Source of the DNA: Desulfurococcales archaeon | GTDB taxonomy: Archaea > Thermoproteota > Thermoprotei_A > Sulfolobales > NBVN01 | Reading direction: 5' to 3' | Assembly (NCBI GenBank): GCA_023255955.1 | Contig: JAGDWD010000006.1 | Location: 1 to 64,000, forward strand | Length of the DNA: 64,000 nt | Shown: positions 49,751 to 58,351 of the stretch, piece after piece | Numbering within the stretch: position 1 is the stretch's first letter | Layout: the number at the start of each line of letters is the position of its first letter | The notes under the pieces: generated by a model | The model's input: the letters and a program-made list of their open reading frames with translations, nothing else | The model's database searches: none | What the model was told of the DNA's origin: nothing | Translations under genes and position numbers: made by a program

Positions 49751-50635
49751 TTGAAAGCCGCTAAATCTCTTGCGGCAATCCTAGCTATATTATTAGTAAT
49801 AGCAATAATCTCATCTGCTGCTTGGTTCTTGAAGATCCAGCTGTACAACCCTAAGACCCCTCTCTCAGGTTTTTTGGTACTCGTAGGACTACTCGCTGCG
49901 GGCTATTACTTCATGAGTGAGGCTAGAGCTGGTGCTACATTCCCAGTTAGGAGGATACCGGCTTTTGATGCTATAGAGGAGGCTGTAGCTAGGTCAGTCG
50001 AGATGGGTAGGCCCGTCCACATGACCTTCGGATACGGAACCATATCCTCGTCGATGGCACCCCAATATATTGCTGGCCTGGGAGTACTTTCCCACGTAGC
50101 TAGGATGTGCGGTAAGTACGGAGCTAAGCTGATCGCTACCTTAGGTGTTCCGGAGGCTATCGCTACAACAGAGGAGATCGTGAGGGAGGGCTACTACTCA
50201 GCGGGGAGACCTGAGCTCTTCGACCCTGCCTACAACGTGAGGTACTTTACTGACCAGCAGTTCGCGTACGCGTCAGCTGTGCAGGCAACGCTGATCAGAG
50301 AAAACGTCGGGGCGAACATAGTGGTCGGGCCATTCTACGCCGAGTCTCTGATATTTATGGAGGCAGGTAACATGGTTAACGCCTTCCAGATAGCTGGAAC
50401 AGCTAGGGAGACTCAGGTACCGTTCTTCGTGCTCGTTGCTGACTACTCGTTTATTGGTGAGGAGATCTTCGCAGCTGGTGCGCTAGCTTCTGGCGATAAA
50501 GAGACCCTAGCATCGATAAGAGGTCAGGACATCGGGAAGCTGTTGGTGATAGTGCTGACGGTCATCGGTATAATTATGCTTCTAGGGGGCTTCAAGCTAG
50601 CAGATTACCTTAACTGGGTATGGAAGGTGGGGTGA
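49751..50635 (+). CDS. DUF6754-type membrane-anchored protein (gene A of the membrane cluster)
   Basis: 294 residues. Two N-terminal helices (about 6-28 and 37-55) and one near the C-terminus (about 260-282) enclose a soluble alpha/beta domain. That domain has RPVHMTFGYGTISSSMAPQY, LGVPEAIATTEEIVREGYY, NVGANIVVGPFYAESL and EETQ-like GTARETQVPFF stretches. I recall this arrangement as the DUF6754 family, whose function is unknown. The start is TTG 49751, about 35 bp after an A/T-rich promoter-like stretch. It is the first gene of a run of five with gaps of 5 bp or overlaps. Confidence 0.75.
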   Translation: MKAAKSLAAILAILLVIAIISSAAWFLKIQLYNPKTPLSGFLVLVGLLAAGYYFMSEARAGATFPVRRIPAFDAIEEAVARSVEMGRPVHMTFGYGTISSSMAPQYIAGLGVLSHVARMCGKYGAKLIATLGVPEAIATTEEIVREGYYSAGRPELFDPAYNVRYFTDQQFAYASAVQATLIRENVGANIVVGPFYAESLIFMEAGNMVNAFQIAGTARETQVPFFVLVADYSFIGEEIFAAGALASGDKETLASIRGQDIGKLLVIVLTVIGIIMLLGGFKLADYLNWVWKVG

Positions 50636-50639
50636 GATA

Positions 50640-51329
50640 ATGAGTTTAGTTATTAGGAAATACATCCCCCAGCTCATCGTCAGCGTAATAATAGTGCTCT
50701 CAGTAACATTCTATTATATCTACATAAACGACAGTATCGCGAAGGGGTTCTCCACAGCAGATAAAGCACTAAGTGATTGGGCAGTCATAGTAACAAGCTT
50801 CGCGCTGATTGTGGGAGGTGTAGACATACTCAGATTCCACCTGACTAAGATAAGGAGGGAAGGAATCAGACAAGCCCCATTCAGCACCGTTACGATAGCG
50901 TTACTCATCATCATGGTAGTCCTAGCTACAATAGGTTGGTACTATAGCTATGCTGACCCCAAGGCCGGCATAACCATAACCACACAACCACAGTTTAGAT
51001 GGCTCTACTCCAACCTGTATGCCCCAGCAGACTCCGCAATGTATTCCATACTAGTGTTCTACATAGCCTCCGCCTCCTACAGAGCCTTCAGGGTAAGAAA
51101 CCCACCAGCCTTACTACTCCTCGTTACTGCTGTCATCGTCATGCTTGGAAACACTACTATAGGTGGCCTAATATGGCCCGGCTTCCTGGGCTTGAGGGAC
51201 TGGATAATGACTGTTCCCAACACAGCCGCGTTCAGACCTATAACCATAGGTGCTGGCCTAGGTACCATCATACTAGGGCTTAGACTGCTTACCTGGAGAG
51301 AGATAAGTTGGATGGGGAGGCGTGATTAA
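50640..51329 (+). CDS. polytopic membrane protein (gene B of the membrane cluster)
   Basis: 229 residues, about six hydrophobic segments (roughly 12-28, 48-66, 82-104, 133-150, 160-185, 197-215). A motif-like short loop KIRREGIRQAPFS follows the second. No family recognised. It starts 4 bp after gene A and overlaps gene C by 8 bp. It is probably the membrane channel or scaffold partner of A and C; this is inference from gene order. Confidence 0.75.
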   Translation: MSLVIRKYIPQLIVSVIIVLSVTFYYIYINDSIAKGFSTADKALSDWAVIVTSFALIVGGVDILRFHLTKIRREGIRQAPFSTVTIALLIIMVVLATIGWYYSYADPKAGITITTQPQFRWLYSNLYAPADSAMYSILVFYIASASYRAFRVRNPPALLLLVTAVIVMLGNTTIGGLIWPGFLGLRDWIMTVPNTAAFRPITIGAGLGTIILGLRLLTWREISWMGRRD

Positions 51330-52182
51330 CATGAGTAGGTCCATATCTTTAGGTAAGATACTTGAATCTAGGGAGCTTCTATATACCTTACTACTGATCT
51401 CAGTTATATTGCCGATCATACACCCACTAGGAATACCGATAGCTGTTTCAGCAAGGACTAAGGCTGTGTATGACTACATCGAGAATAACCTAAAACCGGG
51501 ATGCCACGTATACTTCGAGATATACTATGAGGTAGCTGCTAGAGGTGAGTTAGAGCCGAACGTTGTGGCACTAACTAAACACCTCTTCGACAAGGGATGT
51601 AAGATAGTGTACGGATCGCTTGCCAGCTTCGGGGTTATAGTGTTTGAGCTGATGAAGACTACCGCAGCAGACGTATTCCAGGGTAGGGAGTACGGTAAGG
51701 ACTATGTCTTCCTTGGCTACGTAGCTGGCGGTGAATCAGCCGCAGCATCGTTAGCGAAGAGTATTAAAGGCACGGTAAGTGTTGATAACTACGGCAATAG
51801 AATCGAGAACCTCCCACTGATGCAGGAAGTCGATAAAGCAACAGACTTTGACCTAGTCATCATAGCTTCCTCCGGTACAGATACATTCGCGTACTATGTG
51901 AGACAGTGGTATACACCATATAACGTCCCACTACTCTTCGCAGCTCTAAGCATCATAGCTCCATCAATAGAGCCGTACGTGGGAGCTAAACAAGCTGTAG
52001 GGATGTTGGTTGGGCAGAGAGCTGGTGCTGAATATGAGACCCTGGTAGGTAGGCTAGGTCTAGGCATGGCATCCATGGACGCTCAGAGCACGTCCCACAT
52101 GCTGGTGCTGGTATTCATAGTCATAGGTAACGTAGTATATTGGAGCCAAAGACTTTCGTCTAAGAGAGGTGGTGGGAAGTGA
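51322..52182 (+). CDS. membrane-anchored alpha/beta protein (gene C of the membrane cluster)
   Basis: 286 residues. An N-terminal helix (about 18-38), a soluble domain and a C-terminal helix (about 258-275) mirror the layout of gene A. The domain has KPGCHVYFEIYYEVAAR, CKIVYGSLASFGVIVFELM, FLGYVAGGESAAASLAK and VIIASSGTDTFAYYVRQWY, suggesting an alpha/beta nucleotide- or small-molecule-type fold. The start is GTG 51322 or ATG 51331; GTG keeps the overlap with B. It overlaps gene D by 4 bp. Possible distant paralogue of gene A. Confidence 0.72.
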   Translation: MINMSRSISLGKILESRELLYTLLLISVILPIIHPLGIPIAVSARTKAVYDYIENNLKPGCHVYFEIYYEVAARGELEPNVVALTKHLFDKGCKIVYGSLASFGVIVFELMKTTAADVFQGREYGKDYVFLGYVAGGESAAASLAKSIKGTVSVDNYGNRIENLPLMQEVDKATDFDLVIIASSGTDTFAYYVRQWYTPYNVPLLFAALSIIAPSIEPYVGAKQAVGMLVGQRAGAEYETLVGRLGLGMASMDAQSTSHMLVLVFIVIGNVVYWSQRLSSKRGGGK

Positions 52183-52907
52183 TCAGTTGGGACATTCTCG
52201 GGGCTTGGCTCTCAGCTGCTATGGTTGTATGGATATACAGCTTCGCCTACCGGGATAACCTGTTCTACAAGCTAGCTGAGCACATGTTCGTAGGTGCTGC
52301 TGCTGGCTACTCGATAGCCCTAGCTCTAGATAGCTTGAATAGGGTAATGATAAAGCCCGCCATAACCACCCCAGAAACTTTCTGGACAACTTCGTGGCAT
52401 TACGTAGTACCAGCCATACTGGGTGTCCTCATGTTCGCTAAGTACTCCAGAAAATACTACTGGCTAGCTAGGTATGCCGTAGCAGTAAACATAGCTGTAG
52501 GTACCGGTCTCGCCTTAAGAACCGTTCCGATAGCTAACATAACGAGGCAGATCACAGCGACGATAGTCCCACTATGGGGCTCAGACCCGGTCACAGTACT
52601 CAATAACTGGTTACTAGTACTGATAACTATAGGAGCCCTCACCTACTTCCTCTTCACGATATTCCCGAGAAGAGCTGAAGGTGCTAGACCATCCCCTCTG
52701 TACTACGTCTATAGAACTCTCTACTACATAGGTATATACGGGATGATGGTCGGCTTCGGCGCTCTCTTCGCTAACACTATAATGACCAGGGTAGGCTTCC
52801 TAATATCGATATACCTAATATACCTACAGCCGCAATACTGGGCAACCATAGTTGCCGCGATACTTGCCGCTATAGCTATACTACTCCCCTTAATAAGGAA
52901 GAAGTAG
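52179..52907 (+). CDS. polytopic membrane protein (gene D of the membrane cluster)
   Basis: 242 residues with about seven hydrophobic segments. Notable is EHMFVGAAAGYSIALALDSL in helix 2 and a Tyr/Trp-rich linker KYSRKYYWLARY. GTG start overlapping the gene C stop (GTGA), 2 bp before gene E. Family not recognised. With B it would form the membrane core of the proposed complex. Confidence 0.72.
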   Translation: MISWDILGAWLSAAMVVWIYSFAYRDNLFYKLAEHMFVGAAAGYSIALALDSLNRVMIKPAITTPETFWTTSWHYVVPAILGVLMFAKYSRKYYWLARYAVAVNIAVGTGLALRTVPIANITRQITATIVPLWGSDPVTVLNNWLLVLITIGALTYFLFTIFPRRAEGARPSPLYYVYRTLYYIGIYGMMVGFGALFANTIMTRVGFLISIYLIYLQPQYWATIVAAILAAIAILLPLIRKK

Positions 52908-52909
52908 CT

Positions 52910-53164
52910 ATGAACTACACAATAAGCGAGGACGAGCTACTAGAAAAACTCGCGAGGAAGATCGTGGACGCGAAGCTCGATACAGTAGCTATTTTTTTAC
53001 TTAGTTCTTTCGGGCCTATGGGCCGCCTCTGGGCCCAGGTAGCCAGGCTCTACTTACAGCCTTTCCTGATACTACTCGGGGAGTACGGTGAGTACTTTCT
53101 TTCAGTTCTTCAGGACCCTGAGAAAGTAGAGAAGCTAGTGAGGAAGATAGAGGAGTTAAGTTAA
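52910..53164 (+). CDS. small helical protein (gene E of the membrane cluster)
   Basis: 84 residues: a charged N-terminal helix (EDELLEKLARKIVD), a moderately hydrophobic central part (AIFLLSSFGPMGRLWAQVAR, then LYLQPFLILLGEYGEYFL) and a charged C-terminal helix. It could be a peripheral or hairpin-type subunit. It ends the tight five-gene run. No family recognised. Confidence 0.65.
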   Translation: MNYTISEDELLEKLARKIVDAKLDTVAIFLLSSFGPMGRLWAQVARLYLQPFLILLGEYGEYFLSVLQDPEKVEKLVRKIEELS

Positions 53165-53269
53165 CACTGTGGAGAAGCACTCCATGGGAGCATCGCCTTA
53201 CAGTTAAAGCCCTACTGTCTGAGGTCTGGGGAGGTTAGTTAAGGTTATTAGCTTTTAGATGGATAAGTC

Positions 53270-53328
53270 ATGGATGATGTCGACGACGGGCGGCCTGATA
53301 CCTGATGAACCACTGTAGCGCTGACACA
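53270..53328 (+). ncRNA. C/D-box guide sRNA, predicted 16S rRNA 2'-O-methylation guide
   Basis: Boxes in order: C ATGATGT (53274-53280, last base off consensus), D' CTGA (53295-53298), C' TGATGA (53303-53308), D CTGA (53321-53324). The D' guide (53281-53294) contains CGACGGGCGG (53284-53293), complementary to the universal 16S CCGCCCGUCG. By the N+5 rule g53290 pairs with C1402 (E. coli numbering). The D guide (53309-53320, 12 nt) complements a CGCUACAGUGGU-like stretch, close to the conserved GCUACAAUGG of 16S rRNA. The D'-C' linker is 4 nt. Guide length and box spacing fit archaeal sRNAs. The RNA is unverified. Confidence 0.75.
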
Positions 53329-53540
53329 TTGTGAGCTTCAACTTACTGTTTCAGGTCTCACATGGTATCATAAACTAGAGTCTAGTGCGGGTAGATCCCT
53401 CGAGTAGCTCTAAGTATCTCAGATGCCGAGCAAGATTTCAAAGATGGTTAAAGTGAGAGAAGGAGGTGATGGCTGTCCACACAGGGAGATATATTTGAGG
53501 GAGGTAGGACATGTTTTTATTTGTTCTTTAACAGCGTACT

Positions 53541-55397
53541 GTGGCGATCAGAGAGTTGGCTATTGATAAGGAACCTAGGTACGTCCTTGCTACTGATGTA
53601 GGTAGTACTACCACTAAAGCGAGGTTCTTCGGTAAGGTGAATGGAGAGTGGAAGTTCCTCGCAAGCGGGGAGGCGCCCACAACCGTTGAGAAGCCTGTAG
53701 AGGACGTAACTAGAGGTGTTAGAAACGCTGTTAGGGAGGTTGAGGAGCTGACCGGCCATAAGATCCTCGACGACTCTACGGAGGAGCTTAGGTTTGTAAT
53801 GCCCTACCTAGGTGGTAAGGTAGGTATAGACGTATACGTCTCAACTAGCAGTGCGGGTGGAGGTCTCCAGATGCTCGTTACGGGAGTGGTGAAGAGCATT
53901 ACTGCTGAGAGCGCTCAGAGAGCTGCTCTAGGTGCTGGAGCTATAGTTATGGATGTACTAGCTGTCGACGACGGTAGGGAGATATATGAGAAGGTAAACA
54001 CCCTCAGGTTTCTGAGACCTGACATGATATTACTCGCAGGAGGTACTGACGGGGGCGATAAGGTACACGTACTGGAAATGGCTGAGGTAATAGCTGTATC
54101 GAAGCCCAGACCTCGTTTCGGTGTCTCATACAGACTCCCAGTAGTCTACGCCGGGAATAGAGACGCTAGGGAGGACGTGAAGAAGATACTATCTTCAGAC
54201 CTCTTCGACGTGAGGATAGTAGACAACATAAGACCTCAGATAGAGGTGGAGAAGGTTGAGCCGGCTAGAAACGCGATACTAGAGCTGTTCATGGAGCACG
54301 TCATGGCTCACGCCCCCGGCTACGAGAAACTCAAGAAGGTAGTGTCAACAGATATAATGCCGACCCCAGCAGCGGAGGGCTTAATGATTAGGACCTTCGC
54401 GGAGATGAGGAACGTCAATGTTCTCGGGGTAGGTATGGGTGGTGCTACTACAAACGTTTACTCAGTTTTCGACGGTAGGTTCCTGAGAACGGTTAGTGCT
54501 AATCTAGGTATGAGCTACAGTATCGGTAATGTCCTGAAGGAGGCAGGCCTCGATAACGTGAAAAGGTGGATACCTCTAGATATGTCCGACGACGAGATAA
54601 TGAGTATAATCTACAATAAGATGATAAGACCTACAACAATACCTATGACCCTCGAAGACCTTCTAGTGGAGCACGCTACTGCTAGGGAAAGCATAAGGAT
54701 GGCGTTTAATCACCACAAGTACCTAGCTAGAGAGCTTAAGGGGGTGAAGAAGGAGAGAACCATATCGGATATCTTCGAGGAGGTTAAGGCTGAGGAAACC
54801 TACATAGACATGAAGAGAGTGGACTACATAATAGGTACCGGAGGGCTGCTCTCAAGAGCCCCTAGAAGGGCCCAGTCAATGCTGATACTAGTAGATGCTT
54901 TCCAGCCTATAGGGTTTACCTACATAATGCAGGACAGTGTCTTCATGATCCCGCATCTCGGGGTTCTATCGAAGCTCTACAAGGAGATAGCCCTGGAGAT
55001 ATTTGAGAAGGAGTGCTTGGTACCTCTAGGAACAGTAGTAGCAGCAGCTGGAACCGGCACACCCGGTGAGAAGGTCGCTGACGTTACGGTAGAGTACTCG
55101 GAGGGGGAGAAAGAGAGATTCGAACTCACATTCGGGAACATTATTAGGATCCCAGTGTCCCAACATAAGGAGGTCTCCGTAACTGTTGAGCCAACCAAGA
55201 AGTTCGATTTCGGTCAAGGCTTCGGCAGGAAGGTCAGTAAGGTAGTAAAGGGAGGGATTGTAGGGATAGTTCTAGATGGGCGTGGAAGACCTATCTACGT
55301 ACCTCAAGACCTAGGAGAGAGAAGGAAGTTCCTGCTATCGTGGTTTAAAGCCATGGATATGTACCCGGAGAAATTCTTGGAGAGGATCGGTGGGTGA
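53541..55397 (+). CDS. MutL/GlmL-family ASKHA-fold ATPase (glutamate mutase-associated type)
   Basis: 618 residues of the MutL (GlmL) family, named after a protein encoded between the glutamate mutase subunits in Clostridium. The ASKHA phosphate-1 motif is VLATDVGSTTTKARFF (about 14-29). Other family segments are YVSTSSAGGGLQMLVTGVV, LLAGGTDGGDKVHVLEMAE and the phosphate-2-like GVGMGGATTNVYS. No mutase subunit (MutS/MutE, GlmS/GlmE) is in the window. Its neighbours are the membrane cluster upstream and the barrel-sandwich protein 6 bp downstream, so an ATP-dependent activator role in that system is more likely than B12 metabolism. GTG start. Confidence 0.85.
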   Translation: MAIRELAIDKEPRYVLATDVGSTTTKARFFGKVNGEWKFLASGEAPTTVEKPVEDVTRGVRNAVREVEELTGHKILDDSTEELRFVMPYLGGKVGIDVYVSTSSAGGGLQMLVTGVVKSITAESAQRAALGAGAIVMDVLAVDDGREIYEKVNTLRFLRPDMILLAGGTDGGDKVHVLEMAEVIAVSKPRPRFGVSYRLPVVYAGNRDAREDVKKILSSDLFDVRIVDNIRPQIEVEKVEPARNAILELFMEHVMAHAPGYEKLKKVVSTDIMPTPAAEGLMIRTFAEMRNVNVLGVGMGGATTNVYSVFDGRFLRTVSANLGMSYSIGNVLKEAGLDNVKRWIPLDMSDDEIMSIIYNKMIRPTTIPMTLEDLLVEHATARESIRMAFNHHKYLARELKGVKKERTISDIFEEVKAEETYIDMKRVDYIIGTGGLLSRAPRRAQSMLILVDAFQPIGFTYIMQDSVFMIPHLGVLSKLYKEIALEIFEKECLVPLGTVVAAAGTGTPGEKVADVTVEYSEGEKERFELTFGNIIRIPVSQHKEVSVTVEPTKKFDFGQGFGRKVSKVVKGGIVGIVLDGRGRPIYVPQDLGERRKFLLSWFKAMDMYPEKFLERIGG

Positions 55398-55403
55398 TGA
55401 TCC

Positions 55404-56537
55404 GTGAGTGAGGAGAGCTTCGCATACACACCAGGACTTGCTGTAACCTCCCTCACGTATATAGTCAAGGAGAGGTCACTGCCCATAAAGGGTGAGATAC
55501 TGGTAGAGGAGGGGCAGAAAGTAGATTTCGATACGATAGTTGGAAGATGCTATCTTGAGGGCCCCCCATATATAGTGAAGATAGCTGAGCTCCTAGGTAT
55601 AGAACCTGAGGAGGTGCCCAGGTACCTTAAGGTAAAAATCGGTGACGTCGTTAAGAAGGGGACAGTTCTAGCTGGGTACACAGCTTTCCTGGGTCTTATA
55701 AAGAAAACGGTTGAGTCCCCCGTAGACGGAGTCGTAGAGGGATTTAACGAGCTGACTGGGCACCTAACGGTGAGATCCCCGCCTCGAGTAATAGAGTTAT
55801 CAGCGTACGTGCGGGGTAAGGTAGTGAAGGTCGTGCCCGGAGAGTCCGTGGCTGTAGGGACCCCAGCAGCGTTTATTCAGGGGATAATAGGCTTCGGTGG
55901 TGAGAGACATGGAGTCATAGAGGTAGTGTCCTCGAGTAACCAGGACGTAGTCGGGCCTGAGCATATAGGGGAACACCATGCCGGTAAGATCATCGTCGGG
56001 GGATCATTGATAACGTATGAAGCGCTGGAGAAAGCTAGGAAGGTAGGTGTCGTCGGGGTTGTTGTTGGGGGAGCTAAAATAACTGATATAGAGAGGATTC
56101 TAGGCTACAGGATAGGTGTTGCGATCACAGGGAGGGAGAACATAGGATTTACTCTTGTCCTAACCGAGGGGTTCGGGAAGCTACCTATGTCGCAGAGAGC
56201 ATTCAAAATATTTAAAGAGCATGAGGGTATGGAGGCAGCAATAAACGGTACTACACAGGTCAGGGCAGGCGTCATCAGGCCGGAGATAATCATACCCAAG
56301 GAAGTAGAGGTACCTACCGAGGCTTTAGAGCCTCTTGGTGAAGGAAAGATGAAGGTCGGTAGCGTAGTTAGGATAATAAGGTACCCGTACTTCGGTGAGA
56401 TAGGTACTGTAGTGGAGCTCCCGATAGAGCTACATCAAATCGAGACAGAATCCCCTGTGAGAGTCGTTAAGGTACGCTTACAGGACGGTAGGGTCGTTAC
56501 TGTGCCTAGAGCTAACGTGGAGATTATTAGTGAGTAA
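55404..56537 (+). CDS. hypothetical protein with barrel-sandwich-like and KOW-like segments
   Basis: 377 residues, probably co-translated with the MutL-like gene (6-bp gap, GTG start). Residues about 20-190 look like barrel-sandwich/lipoyl-like halves: VKIGDVVKKGTVLAGYTAFL, ESPVDGVVEGFNELTGHLTV, and AYVRGKVVKVVPGESVAVG. They lack the modified Lys, as in RnfC/NqrA- or HlyD-type domains. Residues about 190-290 form an alpha/beta part (AGKIIVGGSLITYEALEKAR, VVGVVVGGAKI). The C-terminus (VRIIRYPYFGEIGTVVELP, VRLQDGRVVTVPRANVEII) resembles a KOW/SH3-like barrel. Function unknown. Confidence 0.7.
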   Translation: MSEESFAYTPGLAVTSLTYIVKERSLPIKGEILVEEGQKVDFDTIVGRCYLEGPPYIVKIAELLGIEPEEVPRYLKVKIGDVVKKGTVLAGYTAFLGLIKKTVESPVDGVVEGFNELTGHLTVRSPPRVIELSAYVRGKVVKVVPGESVAVGTPAAFIQGIIGFGGERHGVIEVVSSSNQDVVGPEHIGEHHAGKIIVGGSLITYEALEKARKVGVVGVVVGGAKITDIERILGYRIGVAITGRENIGFTLVLTEGFGKLPMSQRAFKIFKEHEGMEAAINGTTQVRAGVIRPEIIIPKEVEVPTEALEPLGEGKMKVGSVVRIIRYPYFGEIGTVVELPIELHQIETESPVRVVKVRLQDGRVVTVPRANVEIISE

Positions 56538-57088: not shown

Positions 57089-58351
57089 CTACTCGTGACG
57101 TACTATTACCCCCTCCTTCATCACGAACACGACTTTTCTGAGGCACTCAATGTCGGTAGCTGGATCTCCAACTACTCCAACTAGGTCAGCTACCTTACCT
57201 CTCTCAATAACACCTACCTCCTCCAAGCCTAGACACTCAGCAGCATTCCCAGTTGCCGCTATGAGTGCGTCTACGGGGTCCATACCGTACCTAACCATAG
57301 CTATAGGTTCGTCAGCATGGTTTCCGAAAGACCTCATCGGCGGTCCGTAATAGTCTGTCCCGGTAGCTATCTTCACACCTGCTCTGTAAGCCTCCCTGAA
57401 GCTCCTGGGCATGTGCTCTATGCAGAGCTCCTGCTTCCTTAACCTCCACTCTGGGACGCCTGGTGGTGGGTTCTCCACCATCTTCTTGTAGACCTCAACT
57501 AGGCAGAGTGTAGGTACGTAGTAAACTCCGCGCTCCTTCATTAACTCTATGGACTCCTCGTCCAGGAAGTACCCGTGCTCTATCGAGTCTACACCTCCTA
57601 AGACAGCTATCTTAACACCTTCAGCACCCTGAGCGTGTGACGCTACCTTCTTACCGACCCTGTGGGCCTCCATAGTGATGAACTTAACCTCAGCTATACT
57701 CATATGTGGGTGGCGAGGATCGTCCTTCTCAGAGCCTACACCACCGGACGTCATCACCTTTATGAAGTCTGCCCCCTCCCTCAGGACCGCTCTAGCAGCC
57801 TTTCTACATTCCCAGGGATCATCACACAGTATGGAGTTACCTCGCTTCTTAACCTCCTCTAACGGTAAGTAATGAATATCGCAATGACCACCTGTCTGAC
57901 ATATGGGCTTACCCGAAGCAAGTATCCTGGGCCCAAGGACAGTGCCCTCCGCTGTAGCTCTCTTAAGTGAGAGCGCTATCGTCCCACCACAGTCGCGGAG
58001 AGTTGTGAAACCTGAGTAGAGAGCTTTCTGCGCGTCCTGAGCTGCTCTCAGAACTCTCAGCTCGTAGGGGACGGTGAGGACCTCAGCTGGATTGTAGGAT
58101 CTCAACCCTGTGAAATGTACGTGCGCGTCAATGAGGCCTGGGAGTAGTGTGACCCCCCTCAACTCCACAAGTTTGTATGGCTCCCTCAGCTCGACTGAAC
58201 CCCTAGTTCCTACATCGTATATGTACCTACCTTCAACCACAACTACAGGGTTATTGATGAATCTCCCCCTACCATCGAATAACCTGTCTGGGAGTATAAC
58301 GTATCTCTCCAGCCTGGACAAGTTAAGGACACCACCACTAACTGCGGTCAA
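57089..58351 (-). CDS. amidohydrolase-superfamily protein (imidazolonepropionase/prolidase-like)
   Basis: A 420-residue TIM-barrel metal-dependent hydrolase. Metal ligands are visible: HVHFTG after GLIDA (about 80), FIKVMTSGGVGS (carbamylated-Lys region), ASHAQGAEG and IEHGYFLDE His residues, and Asp in ATGTDYYGPP. The N- and C-terminal composite beta domains are present (…ERGKVADLVGV). Relatives are Xaa-Arg/Xaa-Pro dipeptidases and other cyclic amidases, so the substrate is undetermined; peptide breakdown would suit the rest of the window. Start TTG 58351. Confidence 0.85.
   Translation of the reverse strand: MTAVSGGVLNLSRLERYVILPDRLFDGRGRFINNPVVVVEGRYIYDVGTRGSVELREPYKLVELRGVTLLPGLIDAHVHFTGLRSYNPAEVLTVPYELRVLRAAQDAQKALYSGFTTLRDCGGTIALSLKRATAEGTVLGPRILASGKPICQTGGHCDIHYLPLEEVKKRGNSILCDDPWECRKAARAVLREGADFIKVMTSGGVGSEKDDPRHPHMSIAEVKFITMEAHRVGKKVASHAQGAEGVKIAVLGGVDSIEHGYFLDEESIELMKERGVYYVPTLCLVEVYKKMVENPPPGVPEWRLRKQELCIEHMPRSFREAYRAGVKIATGTDYYGPPMRSFGNHADEPIAMVRYGMDPVDALIAATGNAAECLGLEEVGVIERGKVADLVGVVGDPATDIECLRKVVFVMKEGVIVRHE

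Follow-up and report, generated by a model that had tools for sequence, protein, structure and literature searches.

An unnamed gene system joining DUF6754 membrane cassettes to a MutL-family protein recurs in bacterial and archaeal lineages

MutL-family proteins are known as the GlmL/MutL accessory proteins (PF13941, NF040745, NF040744 and TIGR01319) of glutamate mutase and ornithine aminomutase loci. In ASKHA reactivases, an ATPase domain is combined with a swivelling domain, and ATP is used to reset the client (PMC7674605). Group II ECF transporters have one shared energising module, a pair of ABC ATPases, that serves many substrate cassettes, and in the Rnf and Nqr complexes a barrel-sandwich protein is peripheral to a membrane core of several subunits. 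The locus described here resembles each of these in part. For DUF6754, the open PMC literature contains no match and broader searches returned nothing relevant; most subscription papers and all preprints lay outside the scope of these searches.

The window, that is, the whole 64,000-nucleotide stretch of archaeal DNA that was analysed, contains seven genes, A to E followed by M and F, all on the + strand, and the layout, packing and coordinates that the earlier note had assigned to them are confirmed. The genes and two neighbours are as follows.

49751-50635, + strand: A, DUF6754 protein, 294 aa, TTG start
50640-51329, + strand: B, polytopic membrane protein
51322-52182, + strand: C, anchored alpha/beta protein
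52179-52907, + strand: D, polytopic membrane protein
52910-53164, + strand: E, small, mainly helical protein
53541-55397, + strand: M, MutL-family protein, 618 aa
55404-56537, + strand: F, barrel-sandwich/KOW-like protein, 377 aa
56527-56886, - strand: small membrane protein, PH-like domain (DUF6232-like; PF19744 and synteny), a possible accessory
57089-58351, - strand: amidohydrolase (PF01979, E 1.2e-48), context and not a component

A and B are separated by 4 bp, B and C overlap by 8 bp, and C and D overlap by 4 bp; the D-E, E-M and M-F gaps are 2, 376 and 6 bp, respectively. In a Pfam search, only A and M of the seven proteins match a family above cut-off, leaving B, C, D, E and F without one. 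The small membrane protein at 56527-56886 matches PF19744 only below cut-off (E 7.7e-4); its homologues adjoin F in most genus and family relatives, and comparable small proteins are found upstream of E in Planctomycetes and in one acidobacterial locus. A genome search shows that M is the sole MutL protein and A the sole DUF6754 protein of the 1.64-Mb source genome. DUF6754 is also present in 5 of the 6 other genomes of the genus that were examined and in two further genomes of the family. Across seven stretches from these genus and family relatives, the locus genes found are 63-87% identical to those of the window, and M-F adjoins ABCD in six of the seven, in the same direction as in the window or inverted.

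B, C and D follow on the same strand after 81 of the 101 DUF6754 genes in the fetched loci. The remaining 20 comprise 7 truncated at a sequence end and 13 with parts missing in simple gene calls, which were not checked individually. Because the genus and family relatives share the genes with synteny mostly kept, and the ABCD order recurs in this majority of DUF6754 genes, the arrangement of the locus is not a matter of chance. Most gaps within the cassettes (197/243) are 20 bp or shorter. The distances of A, B, C and D are strongly correlated (Mantel r 0.77-0.86, compared with at most 0.16 in 200 permutations), indicating that the four proteins travel together, and part of this correlation reflects species relationships. 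A-B-C-D is thus a coherent cassette.

M matches MutL (PF13941; E 1.1e-120, 404 bits, cut-off 27) over the full length of the model, with residues 15-492 spanning model positions 1-450. Like the GlmL/MutL accessory proteins, it therefore has a full MutL domain. Unlike them, it does not reach the cut-off of any of the three GlmL-type NCBIfam models (228, 228 and 161 bits against 475, 600 and 204) and carries a C-terminal extension of ~125 aa beyond the Pfam model. M is related to the GlmL and Or-4 models; against the GlmL model NF040745, it scores 228.3 bits and a bacterial M scores 240 bits, both below the equivalog cut-off of 475. GlmL/MutL accessory loci also have a mutase partner, whereas the glutamate mutase epsilon subunit (PF06368) is absent from the 15 system-bearing genomes searched, the source genome included. 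B12 dependence could not be judged by B12-binding domains, which occur in 15/15 system genomes but also in 12/14 controls, and this measure was set aside as uninformative.

The phosphate-1 motif of M, DxGSTTTK, is intact. In all of the bacterial M proteins that were compared, the phosphate-2 motif is GVDIGGATTD (or DVGG), and it is GVG(L/M)GGATTN in the M of the window and in every sampled archaeal M, so that both acidic residues are replaced in archaea, by Gly and Asn. The change is clade-wide and not a local error. Nucleotide hydrolysis by archaeal M is therefore doubtful; from sequence alone, it is possible that archaeal M binds without hydrolysing, or that it hydrolyses differently. The earlier suggestion of an ATP-driven machine accordingly goes beyond the evidence, as does the mention of similar neighbourhoods in Chloroflexota.

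A motif scan of GTDB contigs found at least 579 confirmed DUF6754 relatives. By their titles, the best 80 include archaea (Bathyarchaeota, Methanomethylicota and Culexarchaeum) and bacteria (Bacillota, with Fermentithermobacillaceae and Symbiobacterium; Zixibacteriota, Cloacimonadota, WOR-3/Stahlbacteria, Planctomycetota, Terriglobia, Neomarinimicrobiota, Armatimonadota, Coatesbacteria, Poribacteria, Eisenbacteria and Aegiribacteria), among others. DUF6754 is absent from all 14 well-known control genomes. In Thermoproteota, DUF6754 and full-length MutL above 400 bits each occur in 6 of 250 genomes, and the six are identical. In Planctomycetota, the two occur in 25 and 27 of 99 genomes and are found together in 21 (Fisher p 1.7e-12, uncorrected for relatedness). 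The Zixibacteria group, sampled as 118 genomes of the phylum to which the Candidatus Zixibacteriota bacterium G250 belongs, has DUF6754 in 118/118, usually in four to six copies, and MutL in 110/118, usually in one; a hand count places MutL within ~6 kb of DUF6754 in at least 40 of the 118. Genomes within one phylum are not independent in these counts. In these samples, the system is patchy in Thermoproteota and Planctomycetota, and DUF6754 is core-like in the Zixibacteria group. A second MutL-type protein, in a frame of ~930-980 aa and scoring 334-352 bits, was observed in six genomes of this group (G302, G304, G316, G363, G290 and G348).

The central claim of the earlier note, that MutL and DUF6754 are linked in a conserved but uncharacterised membrane system that lacks glutamate mutase, is upheld, with the linkage and co-occurrence seen in three separate samples. 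The note had also stated that the reading would fail if the pairing were confined to one genome, or if this MutL belonged to a glutamate mutase locus elsewhere in the genome and its linkage to DUF6754 were not conserved across phyla. Neither is the case, given the co-occurrence in three samples and the lack of the epsilon subunit in 15 genomes. The system is unnamed and of unknown function, and it recurs in many bacterial and archaeal lineages. It brings together seven co-inherited families, five of them without a Pfam family, and can now be searched for as DUF6754 followed by B-C-D, together with a MutL protein with a C-terminal extension and F. This makes it possible to test what DUF6754 does, and what role MutL-type ASKHA proteins have apart from B12 mutases.

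Genomes usually contain a single M-F pair and one to seven ABCD cassettes; G062, for example, has one MutL and seven DUF6754 proteins. Among 80 GTDB loci, 23 have M or F inside the fetched flank, often in the order E-M-F-A-B-C-D that is conserved in bacteria, and tandem ABCD copies occur. A cassette in a tandem is in some cases closer to one of another lineage than to the adjacent copy: the L066_6503 cassette is 61% identical to L135_13155 and 49% identical to its own tandem neighbours. This likeness across lineages points to old and differentiated cassette types. The presence in each genome of a single shared cytoplasmic module beside several cassettes with different neighbours is a likeness to group II ECF transporters; unlike in those transporters, the shared module is of the MutL type, the whole four-gene core is multiplied, and B and D have no Pfam transporter match. 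Among four Bacillota loci of Symbiobacterium (L068, L083, L128 and L129), L068, L128 and L129 have two M genes each and L083 has two F genes. One version of F in this group is longer (452-454 aa), with the barrel-sandwich segment apparently repeated.

The topology classes proposed earlier, with A and C as anchored alpha/beta proteins, B and D as polytopic proteins and E as a helical protein, are also upheld. A matches DUF6754 (PF20539; E 8.4e-69, 232 bits, gathering cut-off 27) and consists of N-terminal TM helices, an alpha/beta domain and a C-terminal TM helix (AlphaFold pLDDT 89.5). In many bacterial homologues of A, a signal peptide and an FN3-like domain come first, followed by a TM helix, basic residues and the DUF6754 domain; the L137 homologue matches PF00041 at 26.2 bits (cut-off 25), and FN3 is missing from archaeal and many bacterial A proteins. 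Because of this order of elements, the DUF6754 domain is read as cytoplasmic and the bacterial FN3 domain as exoplasmic, an inference from the positive-inside rule and FN3. Invariant charged or polar residues of the putative cytoplasmic domain are R81, E84, E198, Q222, D231, E238 and D260. A Foldseek search of the PDB with A gave only Rossmann-like background, with 4-phosphopantoate-beta-alanine ligase as the best match (E 6e-4, TM-score only ~0.3).

C has an alpha/beta (Rossmann-like) domain between N- and C-terminal TM helices (AlphaFold pLDDT 94.9). The C-terminal tail of C is basic, and few basic residues follow its first TM helix, so its domain is inferred by the positive-inside rule to be exoplasmic. 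For C too, Foldseek gave only Rossmann-like background and no convincing PDB fold match (query TM-scores ~0.2-0.34). The models of A and C both run from a helix through six beta-alpha units to a long C-terminal TM helix. Sequence comparison detects no homology of the two proteins (hhalign probability 4%), and this common order is therefore a structural observation only. B has ~6 TM helices by hydropathy averaged over 91 homologues and a conserved YRAFRAR motif, and D has ~6 TM helices by alignment and topology; neither has a Pfam family or a significant PDB match by profile. As far as the PDB searches show, no membrane protein of the system resembles any solved structure. E is a real family, with 20 members in an iterated HMM search; its homologues are 71-185 aa long and in bacteria lie beside M or at one end of ABCD.

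By PDB and Pfam profile leads, the N-terminus of F is weakly like the barrel-sandwich domains of biotinyl/lipoyl proteins, NusG and RNA polymerase beta-prime, and its C-terminus is KOW-like. A middle alpha/beta segment weakly resembles the RraA swivelling fold (E 0.05). Most of the 48 invariant columns in F are Gly; F is ruled out as a biotin or lipoyl carrier, since there is no conserved acceptor Lys. In having a membrane core of several subunits and a peripheral barrel-sandwich protein, here F, the system recalls Rnf and Nqr; none of A-F matches an RnfC/NqrA, flavin or Fe-S family in Pfam.

Of the 145 proteins encoded no more than two genes from a cassette, 13 match amidohydrolases, compared with at most ~1 of 145 control proteins at least six genes away (p 7e-4). 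In the control, they were not among the 25 commonest families, whose lowest listed count was 2. The p value assumes one control match, and it concerns one of many families inspected in a non-independent sample. The amidohydrolase of the window resembles Xaa-Pro dipeptidase (NF051886, 336 bits, below the cut-off of 500), and same-strand downstream amidohydrolases are found at L069, L075, L080 and L098. The gene after D in L131 was dropped as a candidate, since its Pfam assignment is DUF2092 plus AhpC-TSA. A D-aminopeptidase (PF04951) adjoins F in L143-L145, and a stand-alone Lrp/AsnC ligand-binding domain is encoded downstream of D in one cassette type (L032, L050, L051 and L046). Genes for an OADA-like carboxylase and for a biotin-dependent carboxyltransferase adjoin one cassette type, and an acyl-CoA dehydrogenase gene adjoins another. 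Loci of Planctomycetes lie next to plsX/fabH/fabD, and in Phycisphaerae loci lie next to lipid-synthesis genes. This amidohydrolase context, like the arrangement of one M-F with many ABCD, the FN3 domain on bacterial A and the conservation of E, goes beyond the earlier note.

The components, their order and co-occurrence, the coherence of the cassette, the one-to-many stoichiometry and the amidohydrolase-enriched neighbourhood are shown by the sequences. We propose that the seven genes make up one membrane system, in which ABCD would transport amino-acid or peptide compounds and share M-F; the physical complex, nucleotide use, transport and substrates are all inferred, and we consider the whole clearly more likely to be wrong than right. 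ABCD would form the membrane core, with B and D polytopic, the A domain in the cytoplasm and the C domain on the outer side. Each cassette may handle a different small molecule crossing the membrane, most likely a compound of amino-acid or peptide breakdown; it is the neighbouring genes that suggest amino-acid- or peptide-derived compounds. That many diverged cassettes stand against a single M-F pair suggests that the cores are specialised and the servicing module is shared; M, with its ASKHA fold, and F as adaptor would constitute this nucleotide-dependent module. By analogy with the reactivases that service B12 enzymes, M-F may load, activate or reset the cassettes. The likeness to the glycerol/diol dehydratase reactivase lies in the ASKHA fold of M, a possible swivelling-type segment in F and the proposed servicing role; the differences are that the proposed client here is a membrane cassette and not a dehydratase, and that the likeness of F to RraA is weak. 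Transport is preferred over other roles for ABCD, but it is inferred without transport data, and our confidence stays well under an even chance. Pfam and PDB profile searches revealed no transporter fold in B or D, which counts against transport, and neither the core-like presence in the Zixibacteria group nor the plsX/fabH/fabD context obviously fits a catabolic transporter. The lack of the phosphate-2 acids in archaeal M and the two M genes in L068, L128 and L129 also speak against the model. A bolder reading, which we consider clearly less likely than not, is a new class of transport machine with interchangeable ABCD cores and one MutL-type ASKHA module in both domains of life; it would have matching alpha/beta domains on both membrane faces and belong to the core genome of at least one phylum-level group.

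The locus could instead encode a membrane-integral enzyme or an energy-conserving complex. In that case, A and C would be catalytic on the two faces, F would serve as adaptor as barrel-sandwich subunits do in Rnf/Nqr, and M would reactivate a damaged centre. This possibility is supported by the invariant charged or polar residues of A, as an active site would have, by the pairing of an ASKHA ATPase with a swivelling domain in reactivases (PMC7674605) alongside the weak RraA-like segment of F, and by the carboxylase/carboxyltransferase and acyl-CoA dehydrogenase genes beside some cassette types. However, there is no conserved Cys/His cluster or haem, flavin or Fe-S motif among the invariant columns of A-F, and the locus proteins have no cofactor-binding Pfam family and no PDB relative by profile. 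It is also possible that the system is a sensory or envelope-organising scaffold, in which the FN3 domain of A and the C domain would sense the exterior, M would be a nucleotide switch and paralogous cassettes would recognise different surfaces. The fold superfamily of M includes FtsA, PilM and MreB. The inferred exoplasmic FN3 domain on many bacterial A proteins, the occurrence of DUF6754 in every Zixibacteria-group genome (118/118), the lipid-synthesis genes beside Phycisphaerae loci and the small PH-like membrane proteins nearby favour a scaffold. Against it, there is no consistently conserved partner of the kinase, cyclase, peptidoglycan or cytoskeletal kind, FN3 is missing in archaeal and many bacterial A proteins, and the amidohydrolase enrichment would not be expected.

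That M is a conventional GlmL of a B12 aminomutase, placed by chance beside an unrelated membrane operon, is all but excluded. Its membership in PF13941 and its relation to the GlmL and Or-4 models are in favour of this explanation, but PF06368 is missing from 15 genomes, linkage and co-occurrence extend over several phyla, and M both scores below the cut-offs of the three GlmL-type models and has an extra C-terminal region.

Further genes were observed near some loci. The M-F-ABCD locus is often near a glycine decarboxylase subunit gene (L114, L123, L130, L137 and L139), and in L114, L130 and L137 a lipoate-protein-ligase-like gene is also nearby; this proximity could be functional or could be inherited gene order. 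In the L032, L050, L051 and L046 cassette type, a radical SAM protein is also encoded downstream of D in three of the four loci. Divergently upstream of A, the same loci encode a cupin-like protein, a tubulin/FtsZ-family GTPase (PF00091) and a 94-aa protein that reads as MoaD-like.
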